DNA from: Hydrogenophaga sp.
Lineage (GTDB): Bacteria; Pseudomonadota; Gammaproteobacteria; Burkholderiales; Burkholderiaceae_C
DNA: 64,000 nucleotides
Reading direction: 5' to 3'
Assembly: GCF_026125785.1 (NCBI RefSeq)
Contig: NZ_JAHCKL010000009.1
Span: forward strand, 1 to 64,000
The notes under the pieces were generated by a model, which saw nothing but the letters and a program-made list of their open reading frames with translations, did not search any database and had not been told where the DNA came from. Positions 4,131 to 23,182 of this stretch are shown one piece after another. Position 1 is the first letter of the stretch. Each line of letters opens with the position of its first letter. The position numbers and the translations under genes are program-made.

Positions 4131-4762
4131 GTGGTGCGATCGTCGTTCTCGACCAGCGCCGCGTACCGCCGGATGAGTTGCGCCAGGGACTCGGTCCCGA
4201 GCTTGCCGAACAGGTTGGCGCGGTGGGTTTCCACGGTGCGCGGCGACAGGCCCAGGGCGCGGCCGATCTCCTTGTTGGTCAGGCCCTCGACGATCAGGCC
4301 CAGCACCTCGCGCTCGCGTTCGGAGAGTTGTGCGTAGCGGTCGCGCGCGGCGCGGTCGGCCTCATGGCGCTGGCGCGAACGCACGTGTTGGCGCACGGCC
4401 TGCTGCAGGGCTTCGAGCAAGGCCTCGTCGTTCACCGGCTTTTCGAGGAACTCGGCTGCGCCGGCCTTGAAGGCCCGGCGGCACATGTCCACCGTACCGT
4501 GACCGGTGAGCATGATGACGGGCTGGTCCACGCCTTGGGCCACCAGGTGGTCGAGTACCGTCAGTCCGCTGATGCCCGGCATGCGCACGTCCAGCACGAT
4601 GGCGCCTATGCCCTCGCGGTCGAAGTGGGCCAGGAAGTCCTGCGGGTCGCCCCAGGCTTGCACGCGCAGGCCCACGGTGCCGATCAGCAGTGCCAGGCTT
4701 TCGCGCACCGCCTGGTCGTCGTCGATCAGGTGGACGGTGGGGGACAGGGTGTCGCCGCTCAT
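4124..4762 (-). CDS. FixJ/NarL-type two-component response regulator
   Basis: The 212-aa protein has an N-terminal receiver domain (acidic DDD near residue 13, phospho-acceptor Asp58 in VLDVRMPG, the conserved Lys in FLEKPV) and a C-terminal LuxR-type helix-turn-helix (LSEREREVLGLIVEGLTNKE). The start is the ATG ([16 protein letters not shown]) that overlaps the kinase stop codon by ATGA; a longer reading upstream is not needed. It is the cognate regulator of the kinase upstream, and probably acts on the GlcG-like/ankyrin genes downstream. Confidence 0.93.
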   Translation of the reverse strand: MSGDTLSPTVHLIDDDQAVRESLALLIGTVGLRVQAWGDPQDFLAHFDREGIGAIVLDVRMPGISGLTVLDHLVAQGVDQPVIMLTGHGTVDMCRRAFKAGAAEFLEKPVNDEALLEALQQAVRQHVRSRQRHEADRAARDRYAQLSEREREVLGLIVEGLTNKEIGRALGLSPRTVETHRANLFGKLGTESLAQLIRRYAALVENDDRTTP

Positions 4763-6249
4763 GAGGGGGCGTCCTGCGCCCGAGGCAGGCGCAACCGGAA
4801 CACGGCGCCGCCCTCGGGCCGGTTGGCTGCCGTCAGCGCACCACCCATGCCTTGCGCCAGCGACTCGCACAGGCTCAGGCCCAGGCCCAGGCCGCCTTCC
4901 CGGGTGGAAAAAAACGGCTCGAACAGGCGCGGCAGCACCTCGGGCGCGATGCCCTGGCCGCTGTCGCTCACGCTCAGTTCGGCCTGCTCCTGGCGTGGTG
5001 TGAGCGCCAGCACGAGGCGGCGGCGCTCCACGGGCACCTGCTCCAGCGCCTGCAGGGCATTGAGGATCAGGTTGTGCACGATCTGCTCCAGCGCGACCGG
5101 GTCGGCCAGCACGTGCAGGGACGCGGGGCCCTGCACCGAGGGCGTCACTTCGCGCCGCCGGCTCTCTGGCTCCAGGAGGTAGAGCGCGTGACGCACCGCG
5201 GCGGCCATGTCCACCGCCTGAGCCTGGCCCTCGGAACCGGGCCGTTCGACGGCGCGCCGCAGCCGGCCCAGCACATCGGCGGCGCGCCGGGCCTGTTCCG
5301 CCGCCTGTGCCATCGCGCCGCGCGCCGTGGCGAGTTCAGGAGGCTCTTCGGCCAGCAGGCGCTGGGCTGCCTGGGTGTTGGCCAGCACGGCCGTCAGCGG
5401 CTGGTTGAGCTCATGGGCCATGCCAGCGGCCAGTTCACCCAGGGCATTGAGGCGGCCGACCTGGCCCAGCCGCAGCAGTTCTTCGGCGCGGCGCTGCTCA
5501 CTGCGCTGGCGCAGCAGTTGGCGCAGCGCGGTCAGCACCGCCATCACGGCGACCACCCAGGCCAGCATGCGACCCCAGGGCAACTGGTCCCAGCCGATGT
5601 TCCGCTGTGCCACCACGTCGAAGGGTTGGCTATCGGCGGCCAGCACCTTGTGAAAACCCAGGCGCCAGCCACCGCCCGGGCCTTCGCCCGGCGCCACACG
5701 GCCAGGCTGGATCACATGTACCTGCCCGTCCAGCACCAGCGCCACGCGGACCGGGCTGCCTTCGCGCGGCATGGGCCATTCTTCCCAGGGCACCATGGCG
5801 CGCAGGTCGATGGTGAGCGCGTAGCTGGTGGGGGTGGCCGCCAGCACAAGGCGGTAGCGGCCGCCCGGCAGATCGGGTGAGGCCAGCGCGGCGCGGCGGC
5901 TCTGGCGCGAGCGCGCCTCGGCCTGTGCCAGAGCCTCGTCGTCCCAGTGCTGGTCCGCATCGCGCCGCTGCACGGCCAGGATCTGCGGGTAGAGCGCGGG
6001 CAGCCGCTGTTCGGGCGGCGCTGCCTGCATGCCATCGCGCGCTGGCTGCAGCAGTGCCAGCGTGGACAGGATGGCGTCGTGTTGCACCACCCGCTGGCTC
6101 AGCAACCGGTGCACGATGCGCGCATCGGTTTCGAAGAGGGCGCGTTGTTCGTCCAGCCAGCGCTGCGCGAGCCAGGCGGCGCCGGCCAGTGCCACCGCCA
6201 GGCCAGCGGGCACCCACCACCAAGAGCTCTGCCAGGAACGCTGTCGCAT
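4759..6249 (-). CDS. Membrane sensor histidine kinase (DctB-like architecture)
   Basis: The 496-aa protein has a membrane segment at about residues 10-28, an extracytoplasmic domain of ~190 residues, a second membrane segment near 225-245, then HisKA and HATPase domains. The H-box is [13 protein letters not shown] with His279, the N-box [11 protein letters not shown], and the G-boxes DSGQGI and GLGLGLSL. Both membrane segments flank a sensing domain that I cannot assign to a ligand. It is first in a kinase-regulator pair overlapping by 4 bp. The kinase is divergent from the CDF transporter gene, about 40 bp away. Confidence 0.93.
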
Positions 6250-11258: not shown

Positions 11259-12314
11259 GTGAAGACATCCTGGCCCTGGTCGCTTTGCCTCGTGGTGGCG
11301 CTCAACGCGGGCATCTGGCTTTTCAACGTGGGCGACGGCCTCAGCCCGTGGCGGCCGACATCGGCCGAGCTGTTCGCCTGGGGCGCGAACTCCGCTTCGG
11401 CCGTCGTGCAATACCACGAGTACTGGCGGCTGCTGAGCGCCCCCGTGCTGCACGCGGGCGTGGTGCACCTGCTCATCAACATGACGGCGCTCTGGGTGGT
11501 GGGGCGGCAGGTATGCCCATGGCTGGGCAATGGCGCGGTCCTGCTGATCTGTGGTGGTTCGGCCCTGGTGGGCAGTGCGGCCAGCCTGCACGCCGCTTCG
11601 CGCTACGCCGTTTCGGTCGGCGCCTCGGGGGCGGTGTTTGGCCTGGTGGGCGCGCTGCTCGTCGGTCTGGTCGTGCGGCCTGGTTTGCGGCGTGCGCCTT
11701 TGCTGGCCGGTCTGGCCGGGATGCTGGTGCTGGTGGTGGCCCTGGCGCTGACAGGGCGCGGCGGCGACCACGCCGCCCATGCCGGCGGGCTGGTGGGCGG
11801 GGCGGCCATGGCCTGGCTGCTCTCTGGCCGCACGCGCATGCGCTCCCTGTCCGCGCTGGGTTTGCTGGCGCTGATGGTGGGCGGTCTGGTGGCGGGCGCC
11901 TCACCCGGGGTGGACCACCACCGCACACTGGATGCCCAACTGGCGCTGGACGCGCTGCAGCCGCGCCGTGAGCAGGCCGAGCGGGCGTTGCGAGCAGATG
12001 TGGAGGCCGCTCGGCTCGGCCAACTGAGCGATGCGGAACTCGCGCAAGCCATGGCTCAGCGCCACATCCCGGCTTTCCAGGCTCTGGTGGAGGGGCTGTT
12101 CCAGGTGCGCCTGCGCGGCAGCCTGCCCGGCGTGTCCGACCTGCAGGAGCACTACGCCATCCGTGAAGAGATGATGGTGATGGAAGTCGGTCAGGTCCGT
12201 GGCACGCTGGATCCCGGCTATGCGCGCCAGCGCATGGCGGAACTCAGGCAGCGGCTGCAGACCGTGCGCGCGCGGCTGGATCAGGCCACCGCCGAATCCA
12301 CGCCCAGCCGCTGA
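11259..12314 (+). CDS. Rhomboid-family intramembrane serine protease
   Basis: The 351-aa protein has six or more membrane segments in its first ~220 residues. The catalytic dyad is readable: Ser123 in GASGAVFG and His174 in HAAHAGGLVGG. A WR motif (YWRLLSAPVLHAGVVHLLIN) precedes the first conserved His-Asn pair. The last ~120 residues form a soluble, charged extension with predicted coiled-coil character (EQAERALRADVEAARLGQL) not typical of the core fold. The start is a GTG. Its 3' end overlaps the convergent desaturase/YhhN gene by 34 bp. Substrates are unknown. Confidence 0.88.
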   Translation: MKTSWPWSLCLVVALNAGIWLFNVGDGLSPWRPTSAELFAWGANSASAVVQYHEYWRLLSAPVLHAGVVHLLINMTALWVVGRQVCPWLGNGAVLLICGGSALVGSAASLHAASRYAVSVGASGAVFGLVGALLVGLVVRPGLRRAPLLAGLAGMLVLVVALALTGRGGDHAAHAGGLVGGAAMAWLLSGRTRMRSLSALGLLALMVGGLVAGASPGVDHHRTLDAQLALDALQPRREQAERALRADVEAARLGQLSDAELAQAMAQRHIPAFQALVEGLFQVRLRGSLPGVSDLQEHYAIREEMMVMEVGQVRGTLDPGYARQRMAELRQRLQTVRARLDQATAESTPSR

Positions 12315-14050
12315 GCTTGCACGGCGTCCTCGGGTGGGCGTGTGCGCAGCAGCCCGGCCACGATCAGGCACTGCGCCGCGTAGTAGGTGGTGAGCACCCA
12401 GAAGCCCGGTACGGGCAGTGGCGCGACGAAGCGGTTGACCGCCAGCAAGGCATCGCTGGCCATGAAGCACAGGGCGCCGAAGGCCACCATGCGGGACGGG
12501 GTGTCGCGCAGCACCATGGCCCGTCCCAGGGCCTGGGCTGCCATCAGCGAGATGGCCGCCACATACGCGGCCACCGGCGCGCGCAATCCGGTGGGCAGGC
12601 CGCTCTGCCACAGCACCACCAGCATGGCCAGCGCCAGGGCCAGCACCCACGCCAGCGCCTGGCGACTGGGCAGCCAGCCGACGCCGCCTTGCCGGAACAG
12701 CGCGATGTAGGCCAGATGGGCCAACAGGAACGCCGCCAGGCCGGCAATGAAGTGGCCAGGCAGCATCAGAAACACGTCGCCCGCGAGCGAGGCCGCCAGG
12801 GCGGCGAGCAACCAGGGTGCGATGCCGCGCAGGCGTCGGGGTGCCTCGCGCCAGGCCGAGACCACCACCGCCAAGGCCACCAGCATGGTCAGCGGCTTGA
12901 AGACGAGGTGCAACACCGTCCAGCCCAGTGCCGAGCTGGCCATGGCCAGCGCCGCGCATTCGATCAGCAGCGCTTCGCCCATGCGGATGCGGCCTTGCAT
13001 CACGGCCCCCAGGGCCCACTGCGCGGCCAGCAACACGGTGAAGACCACGCCGCTGCGCCACAGCGGCCAGGTATCGGCCAGCCAGAGAAAACCCGCCACG
13101 CCGGCCAGCAATGCGAGGAATTGCACCGCCGCGAACACCCGCACGCCGCGGCCCATGGGCGGTGCGAAACGCTGCACGCGTGCCATGTCGAACGCCGCCG
13201 ACGGGAAACGGGCCGCGACGTCCGCCGGACGCCAGCCCGGGGGCTTGAACCAGACGCGCAACTTGTCGCGCCAGCGGCGCGTGTGCCAGGCGTCGCGCAA
13301 CAGGCTCCAGTACACCTCGGCGTTGGCCCACAACGGGTCCCAGCTGTCCAGCGGCTTGCGCGTGCCATAGACGCAGCGCTCGTCCTCCTCGCGGAAACTG
13401 CCGAACAGCCGGTCCCAGACGATGAGGATGCCGCCGTAGTTGCGGTCCAGGTATCGGTCGTTCACCGCGTGGTGCACGCGGTGATTGGACGGGCTGCAGA
13501 ACCAGCGGTCGAACCAGCCCAGCTTGCCCACCTGTTCGGTGTGCACCCAGAACTGGTAGAGCAGGTCGATCAGCGCCACCACGCCAAACACCAGCGGCGG
13601 CACGCCGGCCACCGCCATCGGCAGGTAGAAGATCCAGCCCAGCAGCGCACCCGAACTGGTCTGGCGCAGCGCGGTTGAGAGGTTGTAGTCCTGACTCTGA
13701 TGGTGCACCACGTGGGCGGCCCAGAACACGGCGCACTCGTGCCCGGCGCGGTGCAGCCAGTAGTAGCAGAAGTCGTAGAACACCAGCGCCAGCAGCCAGC
13801 CGGCCCAGGAGGTCCAGAAGGCCTCGCCGGGTCCGATGGCGACGTGCGCATAGACCAGGGTGTACAGGCCTATTCGCAGCAGGCGGGTGAACACCGCGCT
13901 GATCTGGCTGAGCATGCCCAGGCCGATGCTGGTGATGGCGTCGTCGAGCCGGTAGGTGTTGCGCCGCCGGCGCAGGCCCGTCACGTACTCGATGGCGATC
14001 AGCGCCAGGAACACCGGCGTGGCCAGCACGATGATCTGGCTGGGGCTCAT
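12281..14050 (-). CDS. Fusion: alkylglycerol-monooxygenase-like hydroxylase + YhhN/TMEM86 lysoplasmalogenase
   Basis: The 589-aa membrane protein has two recognisable parts. Residues ~1-290 are a di-iron fatty acid hydroxylase with the histidine boxes HRAGH, HVVHH and HRVHH, and with YNLSTALRQ and LLYQFWVHTE segments that resemble eukaryotic alkylglycerol monooxygenase (TMEM195). Residues ~370-580 are a multi-pass YhhN/TMEM86 domain (GDVFLMLPGHFIAGLAAFLLAH, shortened here to GDVFLMLPGHFIAG; later FMASDALLAVNRF). Known members cut O-alkyl ether and vinyl-ether lipid bonds, respectively. A joint role in breaking down ether lipids is inferred. The start at MSPSQII was preferred over an ATG 13 codons upstream. 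Confidence 0.85.
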   Translation of the reverse strand: MSPSQIIVLATPVFLALIAIEYVTGLRRRRNTYRLDDAITSIGLGMLSQISAVFTRLLRIGLYTLVYAHVAIGPGEAFWTSWAGWLLALVFYDFCYYWLHRAGHECAVFWAAHVVHHQSQDYNLSTALRQTSSGALLGWIFYLPMAVAGVPPLVFGVVALIDLLYQFWVHTEQVGKLGWFDRWFCSPSNHRVHHAVNDRYLDRNYGGILIVWDRLFGSFREEDERCVYGTRKPLDSWDPLWANAEVYWSLLRDAWHTRRWRDKLRVWFKPPGWRPADVAARFPSAAFDMARVQRFAPPMGRGVRVFAAVQFLALLAGVAGFLWLADTWPLWRSGVVFTVLLAAQWALGAVMQGRIRMGEALLIECAALAMASSALGWTVLHLVFKPLTMLVALAVVVSAWREAPRRLRGIAPWLLAALAASLAGDVFLMLPGHFIAGLAAFLLAHLAYIALFRQGGVGWLPSRQALAWVLALALAMLVVLWQSGLPTGLRAPVAAYVAAISLMAAQALGRAMVLRDTPSRMVAFGALCFMASDALLAVNRFVAPLPVPGFWVLTTYYAAQCLIVAGLLRTRPPEDAVQAQRLGVDSAVA

Positions 14051-14148
14051 GGGGTGGCGCTGGCGAGGGCGGAGAAGGGCATGCGGCATTGTGGCGGTGG
14101 CCCCGTTGGCGCGGTGCTGGCGTCAACCCGTACGTGACAGAATCGGGC

Positions 14149-15234
14149 ATGCCTGCCTCGCTGCCGCCGCCCGCCGCGACCGCCCCGGAAAGCGCCACCA
14201 CCGCGCTTTACCGCGCTGCGCTTGGCCCGGTGAACACCGGTGACTACCTGCCGCTGTTCGCGCGTTTCGACGAAGCCGGCCGCGCCGGCCCGGCCTGGAA
14301 CTGGGCCGCCGCGCTCATCACGCTCAACTGGCTGGTGTTTCGCCAGCTATGGATGGCGGCCCTGGTCTACGTCGCCTGTGCCGAAGGCCTGGCCTTGCTG
14401 GTTATCGGCCTGGGCCGCAACGTCCTGCATTGGCCGGCCGCGGTGGAGTGGGGCGTGCTGGGCGCCTTGCTGGTGCTTTGCGTGGCCATTCCCGGTGCGT
14501 ATGGCAACGCCTGGTTGCATGCGGACGTGCGGCGTCGGATGACGCGCGCGGTGCGTGAAGCGCGCACCGTGAAAGAGGCTTGCACCGCCCTCCAGCGGCA
14601 GGCCAGCACCGGGCGGCGGCTGTGGGCGCTGGTGGTGCTCAACCTGTTGCTTGTGGTGGCGCTCCTGGTGGGTTACCGCGCGGTCGAAGCGTTGCGCGCC
14701 GGCCCGGAGGACGCAGCGCCCCCGTCAGAGAACTCGGTGACCGGGTCGGTGCAGGAGCAGGTGGCCGCGCCGCAGGCAGAGCCCGATGCCTCGGCGCTGG
14801 CCACGCCCTCGGCGGAGGTGGCCGAGGACGCGCCAGCAGCCTCTGCGCCCGATGCCGGCGTGCCTCCCGCAGAGCCAGCGGCTTCGGAGCCCTTGACGAC
14901 CGTGGAGACCGAGCCTGCGCCCGCCGAGGCTGAACCGAAGTCCGCTCCGAAACCCATTCTGGCGCCACCGACGCCCTCGCGCACCGAGCGGGTGCCGGCC
15001 GCGCAACAGGGCTTCGTCATCAACGTCGGCCTGTTCGCCGACCCCGCCAACGCCGAGAAGGCCCATGCCCGCCTGCTCGAAACCGGCTTGCCCGCCAGCC
15101 TGCAGGTGCTGGACATGCCCAAAGGCCCCCGCACCCGCGTGCGCGCCGGCCCCTTCACCGACCGGCCCGCAGCCGAAGCCGCTGCCGAGCGCATACGCGC
15201 ACTGGGCCTCGAAGCACAGATCACCAGCCCCTGA
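14149..15234 (+). CDS. DUF2628-SPOR membrane protein
   Basis: The 361-aa protein. Residues ~40-130 form a DUF2628-type membrane region (FDEAGRAGPAWNWAA, then hydrophobic helices), another membrane segment lies near residues 160-180, followed by ~110 residues rich in Ala, Pro and Glu, and a C-terminal SPOR domain (GFVINVGLFADPANAEKA ... VRAGPFTDRPAAEAAA). SPOR domains bind denuded glycan strands at division septa, so this is probably an envelope protein acting at the septum. The TGA stop at 15232-15234 merges into the first base of a tandem repeat array. Confidence 0.82.
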   Translation: MPASLPPPAATAPESATTALYRAALGPVNTGDYLPLFARFDEAGRAGPAWNWAAALITLNWLVFRQLWMAALVYVACAEGLALLVIGLGRNVLHWPAAVEWGVLGALLVLCVAIPGAYGNAWLHADVRRRMTRAVREARTVKEACTALQRQASTGRRLWALVVLNLLLVVALLVGYRAVEALRAGPEDAAPPSENSVTGSVQEQVAAPQAEPDASALATPSAEVAEDAPAASAPDAGVPPAEPAASEPLTTVETEPAPAEAEPKSAPKPILAPPTPSRTERVPAAQQGFVINVGLFADPANAEKAHARLLETGLPASLQVLDMPKGPRTRVRAGPFTDRPAAEAAAERIRALGLEAQITSP

Positions 15235-15519: not shown

Positions 15520-16695
15520 TCACCACACCGCGCCGCGCGCATCGACGGAGACGATGCGCTCGACGTGTCCTGCGGCCAGGCCGCCGCGCACGCCGACCAT
15601 GAAGTCGTGCAGGTTGACGGTGGGGTCGCAGTGGCCTGGCACCAGCCAGACGGTCTCGCCCGGTTCGGGCAGGGCGGTGCCGGCGCCGCCGGTGCGAAGC
15701 AGGCCGTGCTCGTCGCCGCCGTTGCCGTAGCGCAGGCCGCCGGGGAACCAGACCGCGGGCAGGCCGCTGTCGATGGCATGGCTCTTGTGGCCGGCATCGC
15801 ACACGGCATGCTGGGCGCTGCGGCTCATGACCTGGCTCTTGACGAACAGGGCATGTTCGAACACCGGTGCCTGCGGCGCGGGTTCGTTGAGTGCGTAGTC
15901 GGCGTCCATGAACAGGTAGGAGCCAGCCTGCAGCTCGCCCCAGACCCGGCTGGACGATTCGAGCACGAAGGTGCCGGTGCCGGCACCGGTGATGAGGGGC
16001 ACGGAGAACCCCCCGGCCTGCAGGCGCTCGCGTGCCCGCGCCGCCGTCCAGGCGGCCTCGCCAATGGCCTGGGCCCGCTCGGCCGCGGTGCGCCGGTGCT
16101 GGGCGCTGCCATGGTAGGCCTGCAGGCCTGCGAAATGCAGCACCGGGTTGGAGAGGATGCGGTGCGCCAGCACCAGGGCCGTCTCGCCCGGTGGCACGCC
16201 GCAGCGGCCATGGCCGACGTCGATCTCCACGTAGACGTCCACCTTGTGTTCCTCGCGCACGCCCGCATCCGTGAGGGCGTCGGCCAGTCGCTCCACGCCC
16301 AGCGCGCTGTCGACCACCAGGCCAAAGCGGGTGGGCAGGTGGCGCACCGCCTGCGCCAGGCGGCGCAGCTTGGGCGGCGCCAGCACTTCGTTGGTGATCA
16401 GCACGTCGTGCACGCCGCCGTGCGCCATGACCAGAGCTTCCTCGGTCTTCTGCACGCACACGCCGACGGCGCCGTGTGCGATCTGCAGCCGTGCCAGTTC
16501 CACGCTCTTGTGCATCTTCGCGTGCGGCCGCAGGCGCAGCCCGCGCTCGCTGGCAAAGGCCGCCATGCGCGCGAGGTTGCGGTCCATCGCGTCCAGGTCG
16601 ATCACCAGGGTGGGCGTGTCGATGGCGGCCACGCCCTGGCCGATCCATTCCCGCGCGATCTGCCAGCGGCTGGCGGGTTCAGGTGGTGTGTTCAT
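15520..16695 (-). CDS. DSD1/D-threonine aldolase-family PLP enzyme
   Basis: The 391-aa fold-type III PLP enzyme acts on D-amino acids (D-threonine aldolase or D-serine dehydratase in the family). The N-terminal barrel shows TPTLVIDLDAMDRN and RPHAKMHKS with the PLP lysine, and the C-terminal beta domain ends with PGHCDPTVNLHD, whose His and Cys are the zinc ligands of the family. It probably needs both PLP and a divalent metal. Its start overlaps the 3' end of the upstream phosphatase gene by 17 bp. Which D-amino acid is used cannot be told from sequence. Confidence 0.88.
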   Translation of the reverse strand: MNTPPEPASRWQIAREWIGQGVAAIDTPTLVIDLDAMDRNLARMAAFASERGLRLRPHAKMHKSVELARLQIAHGAVGVCVQKTEEALVMAHGGVHDVLITNEVLAPPKLRRLAQAVRHLPTRFGLVVDSALGVERLADALTDAGVREEHKVDVYVEIDVGHGRCGVPPGETALVLAHRILSNPVLHFAGLQAYHGSAQHRRTAAERAQAIGEAAWTAARARERLQAGGFSVPLITGAGTGTFVLESSSRVWGELQAGSYLFMDADYALNEPAPQAPVFEHALFVKSQVMSRSAQHAVCDAGHKSHAIDSGLPAVWFPGGLRYGNGGDEHGLLRTGGAGTALPEPGETVWLVPGHCDPTVNLHDFMVGVRGGLAAGHVERIVSVDARGAVW

Positions 16696-17326
16696 CGAGG
16701 GCGCTTCCGGACTCGGTCTGAAGGTGTTGGGTGTCCGCCCAGCCCACCAGGCTCAGGCCCTCGGGTGACCAGAGCAGGCGGTTGATGGCGGTGTTGGGCA
16801 GTTCCCAACTGCGCGGCGCCTGCAGTTCCAGGCGTGTGGCGGCGCGGTAGAGGATATCGAGCACACCGCCGTGCGCCACCATCAGGACTTGTTCGCCCGG
16901 GTGGCGCGCGGCCAGTTCCAGCACCGCGGGGATCACGCGCCGTTGCAACTGTTGCAGCGATTCGCCGCCCGCGGGCGCGAAATCGGGCATGCGCTTGCGC
17001 CAGGCCAGCGCCTCGGTGGGCCAGCGCGCTTCCAGCTCGGCCCAGGTGTGGCCCTCGAACTGGCCGAAATGGCGCTCCCGCAGCCCGCGGTGGGTGGACA
17101 CCGCCATGCCTTTGACGCGGGCCACCGCATCGGCGGTCTCGAAGGCGCGGCCCAGGTCGCTGGCGTAGATGGCCGAGATCGGTTCGTCCTGCAGCGCCGT
17201 CGCCAGCCGCCGGGCTTGCCAGCGGCCATGCTCGTTGAGCGCGATGTCGGTGTGGCCCTGGATGCGCGTGGCGCGGTTCCAGGCGGTTTCACCGTGGCGA
17301 ACGGCCAGGATGCGGGTGATCTGCAA
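16679..17326 (-). CDS. Histidine phosphatase family protein (GpmB/CobC-like)
   Basis: The 215-aa phosphatase has the RHGETAWN catalytic motif at residues ~10-17 (phospho-His), a conserved Glu in RERHFGQFEG, and the second His in MVAHGGVLDIL. These place it in the 2-histidine phosphatase superfamily near GpmB and alpha-ribazole phosphatase. The substrate is unknown. It overlaps the D-amino acid enzyme gene downstream by 17 bp and is divergent from the PAS kinase. Confidence 0.9.
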   Translation of the reverse strand: MQITRILAVRHGETAWNRATRIQGHTDIALNEHGRWQARRLATALQDEPISAIYASDLGRAFETADAVARVKGMAVSTHRGLRERHFGQFEGHTWAELEARWPTEALAWRKRMPDFAPAGGESLQQLQRRVIPAVLELAARHPGEQVLMVAHGGVLDILYRAATRLELQAPRSWELPNTAINRLLWSPEGLSLVGWADTQHLQTESGSALDEHTT

Positions 17327-17434
17327 CGGGTTTCCTGCGGGATGGATGAACGGTCAGAGCGGGACTGTAGCGGTTTGCGGACAGGCTGCAAACGGATGCG
17401 GAGTCGCTCCGGCGTTGCGACACAATTCATCCCC

Positions 17435-19786
17435 ATGACACCGACTCCGCCCGACGCGGATTTTTCCACCCTTTTCAACTTCCTGCCGATAGGGGCCTAC
17501 CGCAGTTCCCCGGACGGTCAGATGCTCCGGGCCAACCAGGCGCTGGTGGCGCTCAATGGCTACCGCACCGAGGCCGAGCTCATACAGGGCGTGAAGGACA
17601 TTGCCGTCGAGTGGTACGTCGACCCGGTGCGCCGCGCCGAGTTCCGTCGCCTGCTGGAGCGCGACGGCTATGTGCGTGGATTCGTCTCGGAGATCTACCG
17701 TCACCGCACGCGCGAACGGGTCTGGATCAGCGAGAACGCGCACGCGGTGCGCGGTCCACATGGCGAGCTGCGGTTCTACGAAGGCACGGTGGAGGACATC
17801 ACGCCGCTGGTGCGGCACCAGAAGGCGCTGCACGACAGCGAGGAAAAGCTGCGGCTGGTCACCTCGCAGATGCCGGGCATGGTGTATTCGGTCTTTGTCA
17901 CACCAGACGGCCGCCGGCGCTACGACTATGTAAGCCCGGGTGTGCGCGAGATCTATGGCCTGGAGCCCGAGGACCTGCTGCGCGACCCGCTGGTGGCTTC
18001 GCGCTACCGCCATCCTGAGGACGTGGCGCTGTTGGAGCAGGACATGCAGCACATCCGCAAGGGCGAGCCCGTGGACCTGGGCGGCGAGTTTCGCATCGTC
18101 ATGCCCGATGGCCGCATCAAGTGGGTGCTGCGCCGCTCCTACACGGTGTCCAGCGACGAGGAGGGCACCCACCGCGTCGGCGTGCTGCTCGACATCACCG
18201 CGCGCAAAGAGGCCGAGGCGGCCCTGCACGCGAGCGAACGCCTGTGGAAGCTGGCGCTGGAGAGTGCCGGCGACGGTGTCTGGGACTGGAACGTGCAGAC
18301 CGGCGAAGGCTTTGTCTCACCGGGCATCCGGGCCATGCTGGGGTTTGACGACGAGGTCGACCCGGACATGGAGGCGCTTACGCATCCGGACGACGTGGCC
18401 CAGATGCAGGCCGATCGCCAGGCCCATTTTGAAGGCCGCATGCCCAGCTACCGCAACGAGCACCGCATCCGGTGCAAGGATGGCACCTGGAAGTGGGTGC
18501 TTTCGCGCGGCATGGTCATCTCGCGCGACGAAGACGGCAAACCGCTGCGCATGGTGGGCACGCACACCGACATCACCGAGGTGAAGCTGGCCGAGGCGCA
18601 GCACCGCGCGCTGGAGGTGCAGTTGCGCGAATCGCAGAAGATGGAGGCCATCGGCACGCTGGCCGGTGGCGTCGCGCACGATTTCAACAACCTGCTGGCG
18701 GCCATCCTGGGCAACCTGGTGCTGGCGCGCGAGGACGTCGGGCCCCACCATCCTGCGCAGGAGAGCCTCACCGAGATCAACCGCGCGGCCATCCGGGCCC
18801 GCCAGTTGGTGCAGCAGATCCTCACGTTCAGCCGGCGGCAGACGCAGGAGATGGTGCGCCAGCCGCTGACGCCGCTGGTGGAGGAGGCGCTGGGGCTGAT
18901 GCGTTCGCTGCTGCCGGCGGGCGTCCGCCTGATGACGCGTCTGCCCGGGCGCGGCCTGCCGGTGCTGGCCGACGCCACGCAGATGCAGCAGGTGCTCATG
19001 AACCTGTGCACGAACGCCTGGCAGGCCATGGACGGACGCCCCGGGGAAATCACCGTGGCCTTGCGCGAGGCGCAGGTGGACCCGGCCCAGGCCCTGCAGC
19101 TCGGAGGGCTGCCCGCCGGGCTCTACGCCTGCCTGAGCGTGGCCGACAACGGCCAGGGTATGGACGAGGAAACCCAGCGCCGGATCTTCGAGCCGTTCTT
19201 CACCACCAAGGCGCCTGGCGTGGGTACCGGCCTGGGTCTGGCGGTGGTGCATGGCATTGTCAAGGCGCACCGTGGCGCCATCCAGCTCCACAGCCGCCCG
19301 GGTGAAGGCACCCGCTTCGACGTTTTCCTGCCGCTGGCGCCGCTGTCGACAGACAGGGACTCGCTCAGTGCCGTGCCTTCTCCGCCCCCCTTGGGCGCGG
19401 GAGACCTGGTCGCGACGGACCGGCATGTGATCTACATCGACGACTACGAAGCGTTGGTGTTCCTGGTGGGCCGGCTGCTGCGCAAGCACGGTTACCGCGT
19501 CAGCACCTTTGACAATGGCAGTGCGGCGCTGGCATGGCTGCGCGCCCATCCGCAGGAGGCGGTGGACCTGGTGGTGACCGACCAGAACATGCCGGGTATG
19601 GCGGGCGTGGACGTGGCGCGCGCCGTGCGCGCACTGCGGCCGGCATTGCGGGTCGCGATCGTCTCCGGCCACGTCAACGACCGCCTGCTGGCCGATGCCG
19701 CCTCGGCTGGCGTGTGCGAGGTGCTGGGCAAGCAGGACAGCATGGACGCCCTGAGCGAGGCGATCCGCGGACTGCTGGAGCGCTGA
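17435..19786 (+). CDS. PAS-domain hybrid histidine kinase with receiver domain
   Basis: The 783-aa soluble sensor with no visible membrane segment. Three PAS/PAC modules occupy about residues 10-125, 135-260 and 265-390 (PAC ends such as YEGTVEDIT and VGVLLDIT). A HisKA domain follows with His415 in GGVAHDFNNLLAAILGN, then an HATPase domain (N-box NLCTNAWQAM, G-box GTGLGLAVVHGIV) and a C-terminal receiver with Asp716 in VVTDQNMPGM. The start MTPTPPDADF gives a complete first PAS. No response regulator gene is adjacent, so the output partner lies elsewhere. Signal unknown. Confidence 0.9.
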   Translation: MTPTPPDADFSTLFNFLPIGAYRSSPDGQMLRANQALVALNGYRTEAELIQGVKDIAVEWYVDPVRRAEFRRLLERDGYVRGFVSEIYRHRTRERVWISENAHAVRGPHGELRFYEGTVEDITPLVRHQKALHDSEEKLRLVTSQMPGMVYSVFVTPDGRRRYDYVSPGVREIYGLEPEDLLRDPLVASRYRHPEDVALLEQDMQHIRKGEPVDLGGEFRIVMPDGRIKWVLRRSYTVSSDEEGTHRVGVLLDITARKEAEAALHASERLWKLALESAGDGVWDWNVQTGEGFVSPGIRAMLGFDDEVDPDMEALTHPDDVAQMQADRQAHFEGRMPSYRNEHRIRCKDGTWKWVLSRGMVISRDEDGKPLRMVGTHTDITEVKLAEAQHRALEVQLRESQKMEAIGTLAGGVAHDFNNLLAAILGNLVLAREDVGPHHPAQESLTEINRAAIRARQLVQQILTFSRRQTQEMVRQPLTPLVEEALGLMRSLLPAGVRLMTRLPGRGLPVLADATQMQQVLMNLCTNAWQAMDGRPGEITVALREAQVDPAQALQLGGLPAGLYACLSVADNGQGMDEETQRRIFEPFFTTKAPGVGTGLGLAVVHGIVKAHRGAIQLHSRPGEGTRFDVFLPLAPLSTDRDSLSAVPSPPPLGAGDLVATDRHVIYIDDYEALVFLVGRLLRKHGYRVSTFDNGSAALAWLRAHPQEAVDLVVTDQNMPGMAGVDVARAVRALRPALRVAIVSGHVNDRLLADAASAGVCEVLGKQDSMDALSEAIRGLLER

Positions 19787-19800
19787 GCGCGTAAGGCCGC

Positions 19801-20490
19801 TCAGCGCGGGACTTCGATGTCCACCTGGCGCAGCCCGTCCGGTGGCGTGGGGAAGCCCCGCAGGGCCGCATCCAGCATCGCCGACCACAGGCCGTTGGAG
19901 CTGTTCCAGCGGCCATCGTGCGCCGCACGGGTTTCGTAGACCACCTGGCCGCTGGCGGCATGCCGGACCACGATGGAGACCTGTCGCTTGTAGTAGGGCG
20001 ACTCCATGCGCATGAAGACCGGCGCCCAGATCACCTGGCCGGTACCGGTGACGATGTAGTCCCGGCCTGGAATGCCGAAGCCCGGTCCGAAGCCGCGCCA
20101 GCCGTCGTACGGGTCCTCCCAGGGTGCGCGGGGCAGCCGCAGCGTGGCGGCGTTCACCTGCACCGTCCATGGGGCGGCGGCCATGCCTTCGGCGCGCGTC
20201 CAGCCGACCTTGGCCAGCGCCAGCGCGGTGAGGTTCTCCAGTTCGTCCTGCCCGGTGACACCGGGGCCCTGGGTCTGCGAGGGCAGGCGCTCGAAGCGGT
20301 AGATCTGCGGCGCCTGTGGCACCGCCGCAGGCGCACTGGCGCCGGGCCGGTCGCTCCAGCGGGCGAAGCTCTGTACCTGGTTGTCCACCAGGTACACGCT
20401 GGCGCAGCCGCTCAGGGCGACCATCGCCACCGCGGCCAGCAGACCGCGGAGCCAGCCGAGGCCAGCGGGTTGGGTGCTTGCTTGTTTCAT
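19801..20490 (-). CDS. Lipoprotein, DUF4136-like
   Basis: The 229-aa protein has a lipoprotein signal (GLLAAVAMVALSGCAS, lipobox Cys near residue 29), starting at MKQASTQPAG. The mature part (YRFERLPSQ ..., then repeated beta-type strands ending in a C-terminal LRQVDIEVPR) resembles DUF4136 lipoproteins of Burkholderiales. Function unknown. It faces away from ttcA's 3' end, and its gene converges with the hybrid kinase with 14 bp between. Confidence 0.7.
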   Translation of the reverse strand: MKQASTQPAGLGWLRGLLAAVAMVALSGCASVYLVDNQVQSFARWSDRPGASAPAAVPQAPQIYRFERLPSQTQGPGVTGQDELENLTALALAKVGWTRAEGMAAAPWTVQVNAATLRLPRAPWEDPYDGWRGFGPGFGIPGRDYIVTGTGQVIWAPVFMRMESPYYKRQVSIVVRHAASGQVVYETRAAHDGRWNSSNGLWSAMLDAALRGFPTPPDGLRQVDIEVPR

Positions 20491-20524
20491 GGATGGGCCT
20501 CCAGCGCGGCGGGGCATCCCGGTT

Positions 20525-21451
20525 TCAGCAGGCCTCGGGCGTTGTCGCCGCAATCGGTATGACCCCGCGCTGCGCGGTGGCGTTCCCGGTCTTTACAGAC
20601 GGGTCGGCCAGCGCCGGTTCGGGCAGAGGCTCATGGTCGAAGGCCTTGTCGCCGTTCTCATCGGCCTCGCCGGTGGCGCGCAGCGCCGTGAAGGGGTGCA
20701 GGTCGCGGTCCATCAGGTGGCTGGGCACCACGTTCTGCAGCGCGGTGAACATGTTCTCCACACGGCCGGGGAACTTCTTTTCCCAGTCCTGCAGCATCAG
20801 GCTCACCTGCTTGCGCTGCAGGTTGTCCTGGCTGCCGCACAGCGTGCAGGGGATGATGGGGAACTGCCGGATCTCGGCCCAGCGAGCGAGGTCACGCTCG
20901 GGCACGTAGGCCAGCGGGCGGATCACCACATGGCGGCCGTCGTCGCTCACCAGCTTGGGGGGCATGCCCTTGAGCTTGGCACCGAAGAACATGTTGAGCA
21001 GCACCGTCTGCAGGATGTCGTCGCGGTGGTGTCCCAGCGCGATCTTGGTGGCGCCCAGTTCGCTGGCCACGCGGTAGAGGATGCCGCGGCGCAGCCGGCT
21101 GCACAGGCTGCACATGGTCTTGCCCTCGGGGATCACGCGCTTGACGATGGAGTAGGTGTCCTGGTTCTCGATGTGGAAGGGCACGCCGAGCCGGGTCAGG
21201 TAGGCCGGCAGCACGTCGGCAGGGAAGCCGGGTTGCTTCTGGTCCAGGTTGACCGCGATGATCTCGAAGCGCACCGGCGCGCGCGCCTGCAGCTTCTGCA
21301 GGATGTCCAGCAGGCCGTAGCTGTCCTTGCCGCCGGAGAGGCAGACCATCACGCGGTCGCCCTCCTCGATCATGTTGTAGTCGACGATGGCGCGGCCGAC
21401 CTCGCGGCACAGGCGCTTTTCCAGCTTGTGGTTTTCGAATTCGATGTCCAT
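20525..21451 (-). CDS. ttcA: tRNA 2-thiocytidine(32) synthetase TtcA
   Basis: Adds sulfur to C32 of certain tRNAs using an Fe-S cluster. The PP-loop [11 protein letters not shown] sits near residues 40-50, and CxxC motifs CSLC and CTLC (about residues 118-121 and 209-212) hold the [4Fe-4S] cluster. [10 protein letters not shown] is the family's ATP-pyrophosphatase motif. The 308-aa length is normal; the start [14 protein letters not shown] matches the usual N-terminus. The last ~40 residues are a variable tail. Confidence 0.96.
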
Positions 21452-21513
21452 GGGTGAATGCGGGCAGCGCGGCGGAATCCACTCCGCCGGGACAAGCATG
21501 GTACCCGCAGGCG

Positions 21514-22776
21514 TCAGAACGTGGCCAGGGTCGCCACCACCGTGGCCGACATGGCCAGCGTGGCCAGCCAGCCCAGCCAGCGCAGGCGTCGGCCGATCAC
21601 GTGCTCGCCCATGGTCTGCCGCCGGCTGGCCAGCAGCATCATCACGGCCATGATGGGCACCGCGATCACGCCATTGAGCACCGCGGCCCAGAACAGTTCG
21701 CGCACCGGGTCCATGGGGGTGAAGCAGAGGACCACGCCACCCACCGTGGCGGCCGAGATCACCCCGTAGAAGGCCCGGCCTTCGCCCTTGTCCAGGCGGG
21801 CGCTGAGCGTGCCGCTCCAGCCGGCGGCCTCGGCCACCGCGTAGCCGGCCGAGCCGGCCAGCACCGGCACGGCCAGCAGCCCGGTGCCGATGATGCCCAG
21901 GCTGAACAGCAGGAAGGTGAAGTCGCCGGCCAGGGGGCGCAGGGCCTCGGCGGCCTGGGCCGACGTCTGGATGCTGGTGATGCCCGCCGCATGCAGCGTG
22001 GCGGCCGTGCTCAGGATCACGAAGAAGGCGATCAGGTTGGAGAACCCCATGCCGATCAGGGTGTCCAGACGGATGCGCCGCAGGTGGCGGCGCACGCTGG
22101 CGCGTGAGTGTGGCGGCCCGTCGCGTGTGTCCTCCATCTCCTGCGCGGCCTGCCAGAAGAACAGGTAGGGGCTGATGGTGGTGCCGAACAGCGCCACCAC
22201 CATCAGCAGGGCTTCGTTGCTCAGGTTCAGCCGTGGCAGCACCAGTTCGCGCAGGACGGCCCACCAGTCCAGGCGCACGGTGAACACCACCGCCACGTAA
22301 GCCAGCAGCGCCAGGGTCAGCCACTTGAGGCCCCGCACATAGGTGCGGTAGGGCAGGAAGACCTGCAGCAGCAGGCTGACAACGCCGAAGCCCGCGGCGT
22401 ACAGGTGGGTCGAGCCGCCGATCAGCAGGCGCAGCGCCTCCGCCATGGCGGCGATGTCGGCCGAGATGTTGAGCGTGTTGGCGACCACCAGAAGACCCAC
22501 CGTGAGCAGCAGCACGCTGCGCGGAAAGGCGTCGCGGATGTTGGCCGCCAGGCCCTTGCGCGTGACGTGGCCGATGCGCGCGCTGATGACCTGGATGGCC
22601 GCCATCAGCGGCAACGTGAACACCACCGTCCAGAGCAGGGAGAAACCAAACTGCGCGCCGGCCTGGGAGTAGGTGGCGATGCCGCTGGGGTCGTCGTCGG
22701 CGGCACCCGTGATCAGACCTGGGCCGAGCTGGCGAAGCCCCTTGTTCAGCCTGGCCCGCAGCGCCGCTGGCTTCAT
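21514..22776 (-). CDS. NRAMP-family divalent metal transporter (variant metal site)
   Basis: The 420-aa protein with 11 or so membrane segments. TM1 carries DDDPSG (Asp29-Pro30-Ser31) where classic Mn/Fe NRAMPs have DPGN, and TM6 has ISPYLFFWQ (Ser202-Pro203-Tyr204) in place of the metal-binding Ala/Ser-x-x-Met-Pro-His. Loss of Met and His suggests it does not share the usual Mn2+/Fe2+ selectivity. It lies between ttcA and folB on the same strand. Substrate unknown. Confidence 0.88.
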
Positions 22777-22801
22777 GCGGGTCGGCCGGCGGGCCCGTTG
22801 G

Positions 22802-23182
22802 TCACCACTGGCCGCTTTCCATGCGGATGGCGACCTCGCAGTCCTCGAAGATCTCCAGCTTGGCGATCTTCACCCGCACGCCGATCACGCCGGGCAACTG
22901 CATGAGCCGGCGCGTGAGCTTGCCGATCAGGCTCTCCAGCAGGTTGACGTGCTCGGCGGTGCATTCGTCGATGATGATCTGGCGGACCTTGCGGTAGTCC
23001 AGCACATGGCCGATGTCGTCGTCGTGCGGCATCAGTGGCTGCGTGCCCTGGTTGAGCTCGGCGTCCACCTGGATCGGTTGCGGCGAGGATTTCTCGTGGT
23101 CGAGGATGCCCAGATTGGCATTGAAGCGCAGGCCGCTCAGGGTAAGGATCTGGGTGCCCGCGTAGGTCAGGGACTTCGGCAT
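22802..23182 (-). CDS. folB: Dihydroneopterin aldolase
   Basis: The 126-aa folate-pathway enzyme converts dihydroneopterin to 6-hydroxymethyl-dihydropterin and glycolaldehyde. The conserved Tyr/Glu region is DIGHVLDYRKV, and LLESLIGKLTRRLM and VRVKIAKLEIF (with the catalytic Lys region) are typical. It directly follows the FolM-like reductase gene (7 bp apart), so the two form a folate/pterin unit. Confidence 0.94.
   Translation of the reverse strand: MPKSLTYAGTQILTLSGLRFNANLGILDHEKSSPQPIQVDAELNQGTQPLMPHDDDIGHVLDYRKVRQIIIDECTAEHVNLLESLIGKLTRRLMQLPGVIGVRVKIAKLEIFEDCEVAIRMESGQW

Follow-up and report, generated by a model that had tools for sequence, protein, structure and literature searches.

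A Hydrogenophaga gene that joins an AGMO-like hydroxylase to a YhhN lysoplasmalogenase domain, and the recurrent partnership of the two families in bacteria

Alkylglycerol monooxygenase (AGMO, also called TMEM195, EC 1.14.16.5) and the YhhN/TMEM86 lysoplasmalogenases are two known enzyme families; their animal members are the two enzymes known to take ether-linked chains off glycerol lipids, and TMEM86B and AGMO are treated as separate enzymes of ether-lipid breakdown in PMC9131029. According to the 2013 AGMO review, AGMO acts only on substrates whose sn-2 hydroxyl is free, and vinyl ethers are not accepted; the enzyme is labile, has not been purified so far and is listed from animals. The review leaves open whether the hemiacetal formed by AGMO breaks down spontaneously only or through an additional, unidentified enzyme. 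In bacteria, Mycobacterium tuberculosis possesses YhhN and no plasmalogens of its own, as stated in PMC9052158. This report addresses a gene at 12281..14050 on the minus strand of a 64,000-nucleotide stretch of Hydrogenophaga sp. DNA (assembly GCF_026125785.1, contig NZ_JAHCKL010000009.1, positions 1 to 64,000; this whole stretch is called the window), in which relatives of both families stand in one chain. The fusion is probably a membrane enzyme that removes sn-1 alkyl and alkenyl ether chains from lyso-ether-lipids, and the new part is the recurrent partnership of the two families.

The gene occupies one open frame on the minus strand, 12281..14089, which gives 602 codons from the first ATG in the list of open reading frames; a second in-frame ATG at 14050 gives 589 amino acids plus stop. 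Scanning of named bacterial genomes yielded at least 536 confirmed relatives, and the best 80 of these are the named relatives, or named fusions, of every count out of 80 in this text. Because methionine is kept at the position aligned with the second ATG in 75 of 80 (and at most four columns away in all 80), versus only 30 of 80 at the position aligned with the first ATG (14089), the 589-residue start is preferred and is the likelier one by this comparison. Residue numbers follow the 602-residue form unless stated otherwise. All 80 named loci encode a two-domain frame, 568-992 amino acids long and 63-79% identical, so the fusion is not a frame accident. The original prediction of a single two-domain protein at 12281..14050 is borne out, with an open frame and both Pfam domains present, and the motifs quoted for it (HVVHH, NLSTALRQ, QFWVHTE and HRVHH) are all found in the translation. 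Beyond FA_hydroxylase and YhhN, the protein matched no Pfam domain at an E-value (E) up to 10. The features of the gene are as follows.

12281..14050, minus strand: fusion gene (list of open reading frames; methionine column of 75 of 80 named relatives)
13397..13798, minus strand: FA_hydroxylase domain PF04116, residues 98-231 (Pfam E 2.8e-30)
13412..13753, minus strand: AGMO-type catalytic stretch H113 to D226, in which the 16 functional positions of human AGMO (H132...D244) are all matched, including E118, the equivalent of E137
12998..13150, minus strand: two helices (314-338 and 343-364) in the place of transmembrane helices TM6-TM7 of AGMO (models and alignments)
12350..12910, minus strand: YhhN domain PF07947, residues 394-580 (Pfam E 9.7e-45; genome search 8.8e-46)
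12383..12898, minus strand: putative YhhN/TMEM86 active site K398, G437, D438, H458, G538, S545, D546 and Y569 (residue positions of TMEM86)

The C-terminal half belongs to the YhhN/TMEM86 lysoplasmalogenase family, as had been proposed. The PF07947 match covers profile positions 2-182 of 182 (E 9.7e-45, 152.9 bits against a cut-off of 25.6). None of the eight putative active-site residues is missing, a loss that the original prediction had named as a sign against itself; all eight are present in the window protein and constant in 80/80 named fusions. They were located by motif and spacing, which resembles that of TMEM86A closely and does not differ from it between G182 and Y213, and Y569 was chosen over Y570 for its TMEM86A spacing from D190 (23 residues). 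A wider set of 90 fusions, six of which repeat named sequences, contains one change of G538 to S, in L010. Seven of the eight residues affect activity in TMEM86A/B mutants, as given in PMC11994398. Structurally, the half is modelled with eight predicted helices, from 357-374 to 548-568 in the 589-residue numbering, mostly at a predicted local distance difference test (pLDDT) score >90, and in a G-protein-coupled-receptor/rhodopsin-like arrangement, as the literature reports for MtbYhhN. A second YhhN gene was not found in the same genome at E 0.001. The domain PF07947, the eight residues and the eight helices are shared with the lysoplasmalogenases TMEM86A/B, Legionella pneumophila Lpg1991 and M. 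tuberculosis Rv1401. TMEM86A/B and Lpg1991 are stand-alone proteins. Rv1401 is likewise described as stand-alone in the literature, whereas here a hydroxylase carries the YhhN domain as its C-terminal half.

The N-terminal half shares PF04116 with AGMO and carries every one of the 16 residues that the literature gives as essential to the human enzyme or in contact with its cofactor, with one spacing shift of a single residue; for AGMO as for TMEM86, the comparison with the animal enzymes is one of published residue positions. The nine essential histidines (132, 136, 145, 148, 149, 201, 221, 224 and 225) have equivalents in the window protein and in all 80 named fusions. The tetrahydropterin-contacting E137 corresponds to E118, and is E in 74 of the 80. 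Q162, D233, N235, Y236, W243 and D244 are matched six for six in the window protein, and the Y236 position is H in one named fusion (L078). The length of AGMO, 445 amino acids, is similar to that of many unfused bacterial relatives (378-478 amino acids), and in 8/13 unfused full-length relatives scanned the AGMO-type C-terminal domain AGMP_C (PF24858) gave a weak match, below the cut-off, in the expected place. The fusion differs from AGMO in being bacterial, in the last-helix region, which runs into the eight-helix YhhN domain, and in the AGMP_C domain, which is undetected in it.

Some other bacteria keep the two genes unfused and side by side, and the two proteins therefore probably do one job together. 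Such coupling of an AGMO-like gene and YhhN was seen in three further families, and either gene can come first. In G304 (L104), a 478-residue AGMO-like gene is followed by YhhN, whose best-placed ATG overlaps the stop (ATGA, 4558-4561), so the gene order equals the domain order of the fusion. In G048 (L095), YhhN lies one base upstream of an AGMO-like gene carrying T at the glutamate position, and in G323 (L116) two bases upstream of a shorter AGMO-like gene carrying K there. In G630 and G646, which belong to one family, the two genes are convergent, and about 1.2 kb separates the stretches that were matched. Both genes, unfused and with the AGMO-like gene at full length, stand within about 1.3 kb of each other in 4/22 genomes that have them; G323 is outside these 22, its AGMO-like gene being of the short type.

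Co-occurrence of the two genes points in the same direction. Full length was set at a score gap, at bits of at least 330 in a phylum sample and at least 390 in an order sample, and the counts were read by eye. The order sample (300 genomes, the Hydrogenophaga genome included) holds full-length AGMO-like genes in 24 genomes, YhhN over the cut-off in 14 and both in 10, of which 4 are fused; without the fusions, YhhN is present in 6/20 genomes with the AGMO-like gene versus 4/276 (Fisher p 7.7e-6, uncorrected for kinship). The phylum sample (398 genomes) holds 32, 105 and 24, respectively, 6 of the last being fused, and without these YhhN is present in 18/26 versus 81/366 (p 1.2e-6, likewise uncorrected). 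The samples share some genomes and the tests ignore common descent. A short AGMO-like group of about 300 amino acids (L096, L097 and L116 among others) was also observed, with YhhN in 52/74 of its genomes versus 29/292 of those with neither group. Aligned rows of this group carry K or R at the pterin-glutamate position, and its tandem with YhhN in L116 lies at 4663-6194.

The fusion itself is widespread in Comamonadaceae as a stable protein family. Among the best 80 of at least 536 relatives, the top ones are from Hydrogenophaga, and the named genera also include Acidovorax, Variovorax, Polaromonas, Ramlibacter, Caenimonas, Curvibacter, Diaphorobacter, Hylemonella and Rhodoferax. A tree of the N-terminal unit (46 rows, quick method) groups the 18 fused rows together (98% support) and sets this branch inside the unfused genes, an arrangement that fits a fusion that arose once in the sampled tree. 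This tree contains long rows; the warning attached to it concerns short and paralog rows. In the YhhN tree, made by the same quick method, the branches are very long, and the source of the fused YhhN is not evident from it. The fusion was looked for on plasmids and not seen: none of 192 matching plasmid records covers 80% of the query. A single origin would also be expected if two unrelated membrane enzymes had been joined once through stop-codon loss, with no functional link, and this one event had been inherited widely. Such a neutral fusion is very improbable, since it does not account for the coupled pairs, of either gene order, in three further families, for co-occurrence above expectation, or for the retention of both active sites in 80 named fusions, with the glutamate kept in 74.

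Several observations weigh against reading the fusion as an AGMO-type monooxygenase joined to its YhhN partner. The pterin glutamate is replaced in six of the 80 named fusions (T in L023, L033, L035 and L049, G in L078 and R in L086); their other catalytic positions are kept, except for Y236 to H in L078, and the loss perhaps means a change of cofactor or loss of monooxygenase activity. In alignment A3 it is absent from 6/19 unfused full-length relatives, L095 of the coupled pairs included. Because of these replacements in fused and unfused proteins, pterin use may not be general. A distant FA_hydroxylase paralog of the same genome (L131 3290-4588, contig C42) carries 15 of the 16 AGMO residues, the glutamate included, and no AGMP_C match, so the 16 residues alone are no proof of AGMO chemistry. 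No AGMP_C match was obtained for the fusion protein (E up to 10) or, in the search of its own genome, at the fusion locus, and 0/31 fused rows matched it at E up to 1. The domain is equally unmatched in 5/13 unfused relatives (L093, L094, L095, L105 and L121), and L093 and L105 are among the unfused genes nearest the fusion in the tree. The nine-helix layout of AGMO is not found in the fusion, whose chain enters YhhN after the two helices at the TM6-TM7 place; in models and alignments, helix 370-387 doubles as the TM8 place of unfused relatives and the first YhhN helix. The unfused relatives nearest the fusion end after TM7 (L105) or TM8 (L093, L112 and L113) in the alignment. With neither AGMP_C nor nine helices found, the N-terminal half is filed as AGMO-like and not as AGMO. 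The model of the whole fusion is also poor at the di-iron region, with several segments under pLDDT 50, and this region is modelled well only with the N-terminal unit folded alone and a wider alignment.

The partnership and the stability of the family have their own exceptions. In 18/22 genomes with both genes unfused, these lie far apart or on different contigs, and 8/32 genomes of the phylum sample with a full-length AGMO-like gene are without YhhN. Within its genus the fusion is patchy, being full or near-full length in 20/36 genomes, with pieces in two fragmentary assemblies, and it is absent from G001, G022 and other complete genomes. In two of the 20 an in-frame TGA stands inside the fusion, in G025:C1:5339266-5341020 and in G008:C40:2234-3992, the latter in two pieces; these are possibly decayed copies or assembly errors.

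The original prediction had found the N-terminal half to resemble AGMO and not just any sterol desaturase, and this stands in part. The other outcome that it had named as a sign against itself, an N-terminal half grouping with fatty acid or sterol hydroxylases unrelated to TMEM195, was not observed. The 16 residues and the weak AGMP_C matches of 8/13 unfused relatives speak for an AGMO-type protein; the quoted motifs are less diagnostic than was thought, since 15 of the 16 residues recur in the paralog. The eight-histidine domain of this half is shared by OlsE and other bacterial FA_hydroxylase proteins. The half could be a bacterial membrane-lipid hydroxylase of the ornithine-lipid OlsE type, with YhhN as a lysolipid or aldehyde partner unrelated to ether lipids, and the ether-lipid reading would then be borrowed from animal homologs. 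OlsE (NF052566) is in fact the sole NCBIfam match (E 1.7e-14), the annotated relatives among the 15 plasmid rows listed are named sterol desaturases, and to our knowledge no native YhhN substrate is described for free-living bacteria. We consider this unlikely, given an OlsE score of 53.8 bits against a cut-off of 475 and the AGMO-type C-terminal extension matched in 8/13 unfused relatives. The pairing with YhhN would also stay unexplained, and we know of no YhhN partner of OlsE.

The AGMO/YhhN reading appears well supported by comparison, and it is from sequence that we infer both activities and their joint role. The N-terminal domain would be a di-iron, tetrahydropterin-dependent AGMO-type monooxygenase, hydroxylating the carbon next to the O-alkyl ether, and the resulting hemiacetal would break down, releasing a fatty aldehyde and leaving glycerol or glycerophospho-X. 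The C-terminal domain, as a YhhN lysoplasmalogenase, would hydrolyse the O-alk-1'-enyl bond to the same products. Between them, the two domains would remove sn-1 ether lyso-lipids of either kind. These would most likely come from foreign membranes, and their removal would serve detoxification or supply carbon.

The domains could also act in series, the AGMO-type domain making the 1'-hydroxy hemiacetal and YhhN catalysing its collapse to the aldehyde; vinyl-ether hydrolysis by YhhN would presumably pass through the same hemiacetal, giving one product-forming site for both reactions. This is rather unlikely, although the 2013 AGMO review leaves room for a hemiacetal-resolving enzyme, the fusion and the close coupling in both gene orders fit consecutive steps, and M. 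tuberculosis, according to PMC9052158, keeps YhhN without plasmalogens of its own. TMEM195 expressed in Chinese hamster ovary (CHO) cells gave AGMO activity according to the same review, though CHO cells may have their own TMEM86; 8/32 full-length AGMO-like genomes lack YhhN, and YhhN is present in 29/292 genomes with neither a long nor a short AGMO-like gene. In its broad form, which we hold to be unlikely, YhhN would be the missing partner of AGMO, the two forming one catalytic unit in many Proteobacteria, with the YhhN channel resolving the unstable hemiacetal. That YhhN would also hydrate vinyl ethers to that hemiacetal, with controlled release of the aldehyde, seems improbable as well. 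If YhhN does resolve the AGMO hemiacetal, this would explain a lysoplasmalogenase in bacteria making no plasmalogens, and AGMO and TMEM86 of animals would then be expected to be partners, physically or functionally.

The host genome has one phenylalanine-hydroxylase-family match and one pterin-dehydratase match, which makes a pterin supply plausible. As correlates of the fusion, pterin genes were rejected: PF01329 is present in 58/60 and PF00351 in 37/60 relatives, and they are too common among these to support a link. Regarding the substrate, "foreign or its own plasmalogens" had been suggested. In this genome, which is 93.8% complete, CarF/PEDS1 (PF10520) was not found at E up to 10, nor DUF2229 (PF09989), which we take to be linked to clostridial PlsA, at E up to 1; other plasmalogen routes were not searched. 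Own plasmalogens are thus not supported, and with these two synthesis markers not found, a foreign substrate is judged the likelier.

In the open-licence PMC literature, no paper was found that joins sterol desaturase and lysoplasmalogenase, YhhN and fatty acid hydroxylase, or Hydrogenophaga and plasmalogen, and none of the titles listed was on a bacterial AGMO. The recurrent AGMO-like/YhhN partnership was not found described there, and the fusion may be listed in domain-architecture databases or subscription papers. A bacterial, naturally fused AGMO relative could be a more tractable model, with alkyl- and alkenyl-ether cleavage putatively paired in one chain. The fusion is also relevant to the question of an enzymatic or purely spontaneous breakdown of the AGMO hemiacetal. 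Additionally, it offers an explanation, open to testing, of why bacteria that lack plasmalogens have YhhN, which PMC9052158 raises as a puzzle for M. tuberculosis.

The nearest genes in the window are the following, the first two lying outside the system.

11259..12314, plus strand: rhomboid protein, convergent, overlapping the 3' end of the fusion by 34 bases
14134..15234, plus strand: SPOR-domain protein, divergent
15520..16695, minus strand: Ala_racemase_N/D-ser_dehydrat enzyme

In 52/80 named loci, relatives of the last gene precede the fusion in the same orientation, at a median gap of 26 bases. They belong to a same-strand block upstream of fusions, seen at 15520-23182 (minus strand) in the window and in L025, L029, L041, L081 and others, which consists of Ala_racemase_N/D-ser_dehydrat, a histidine phosphatase, a lipoprotein, ttcA, folB and a folM-like short-chain dehydrogenase/reductase (the ttcA, folM and lipoprotein labels were given by eye). 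This pterin-gene neighbourhood may be old and unrelated; the folM/folB/ttcA block was looked at only in genomes with the fusion and was not used as evidence. Upstream of unfused genes, an AraC-family regulator with an Arabinose_bd domain was observed at L094 4741-5853, before the AGMO-like gene, and at L095 4174-5202, before the YhhN/AGMO pair, and genes resembling it by eye stand beside L107 and L108.
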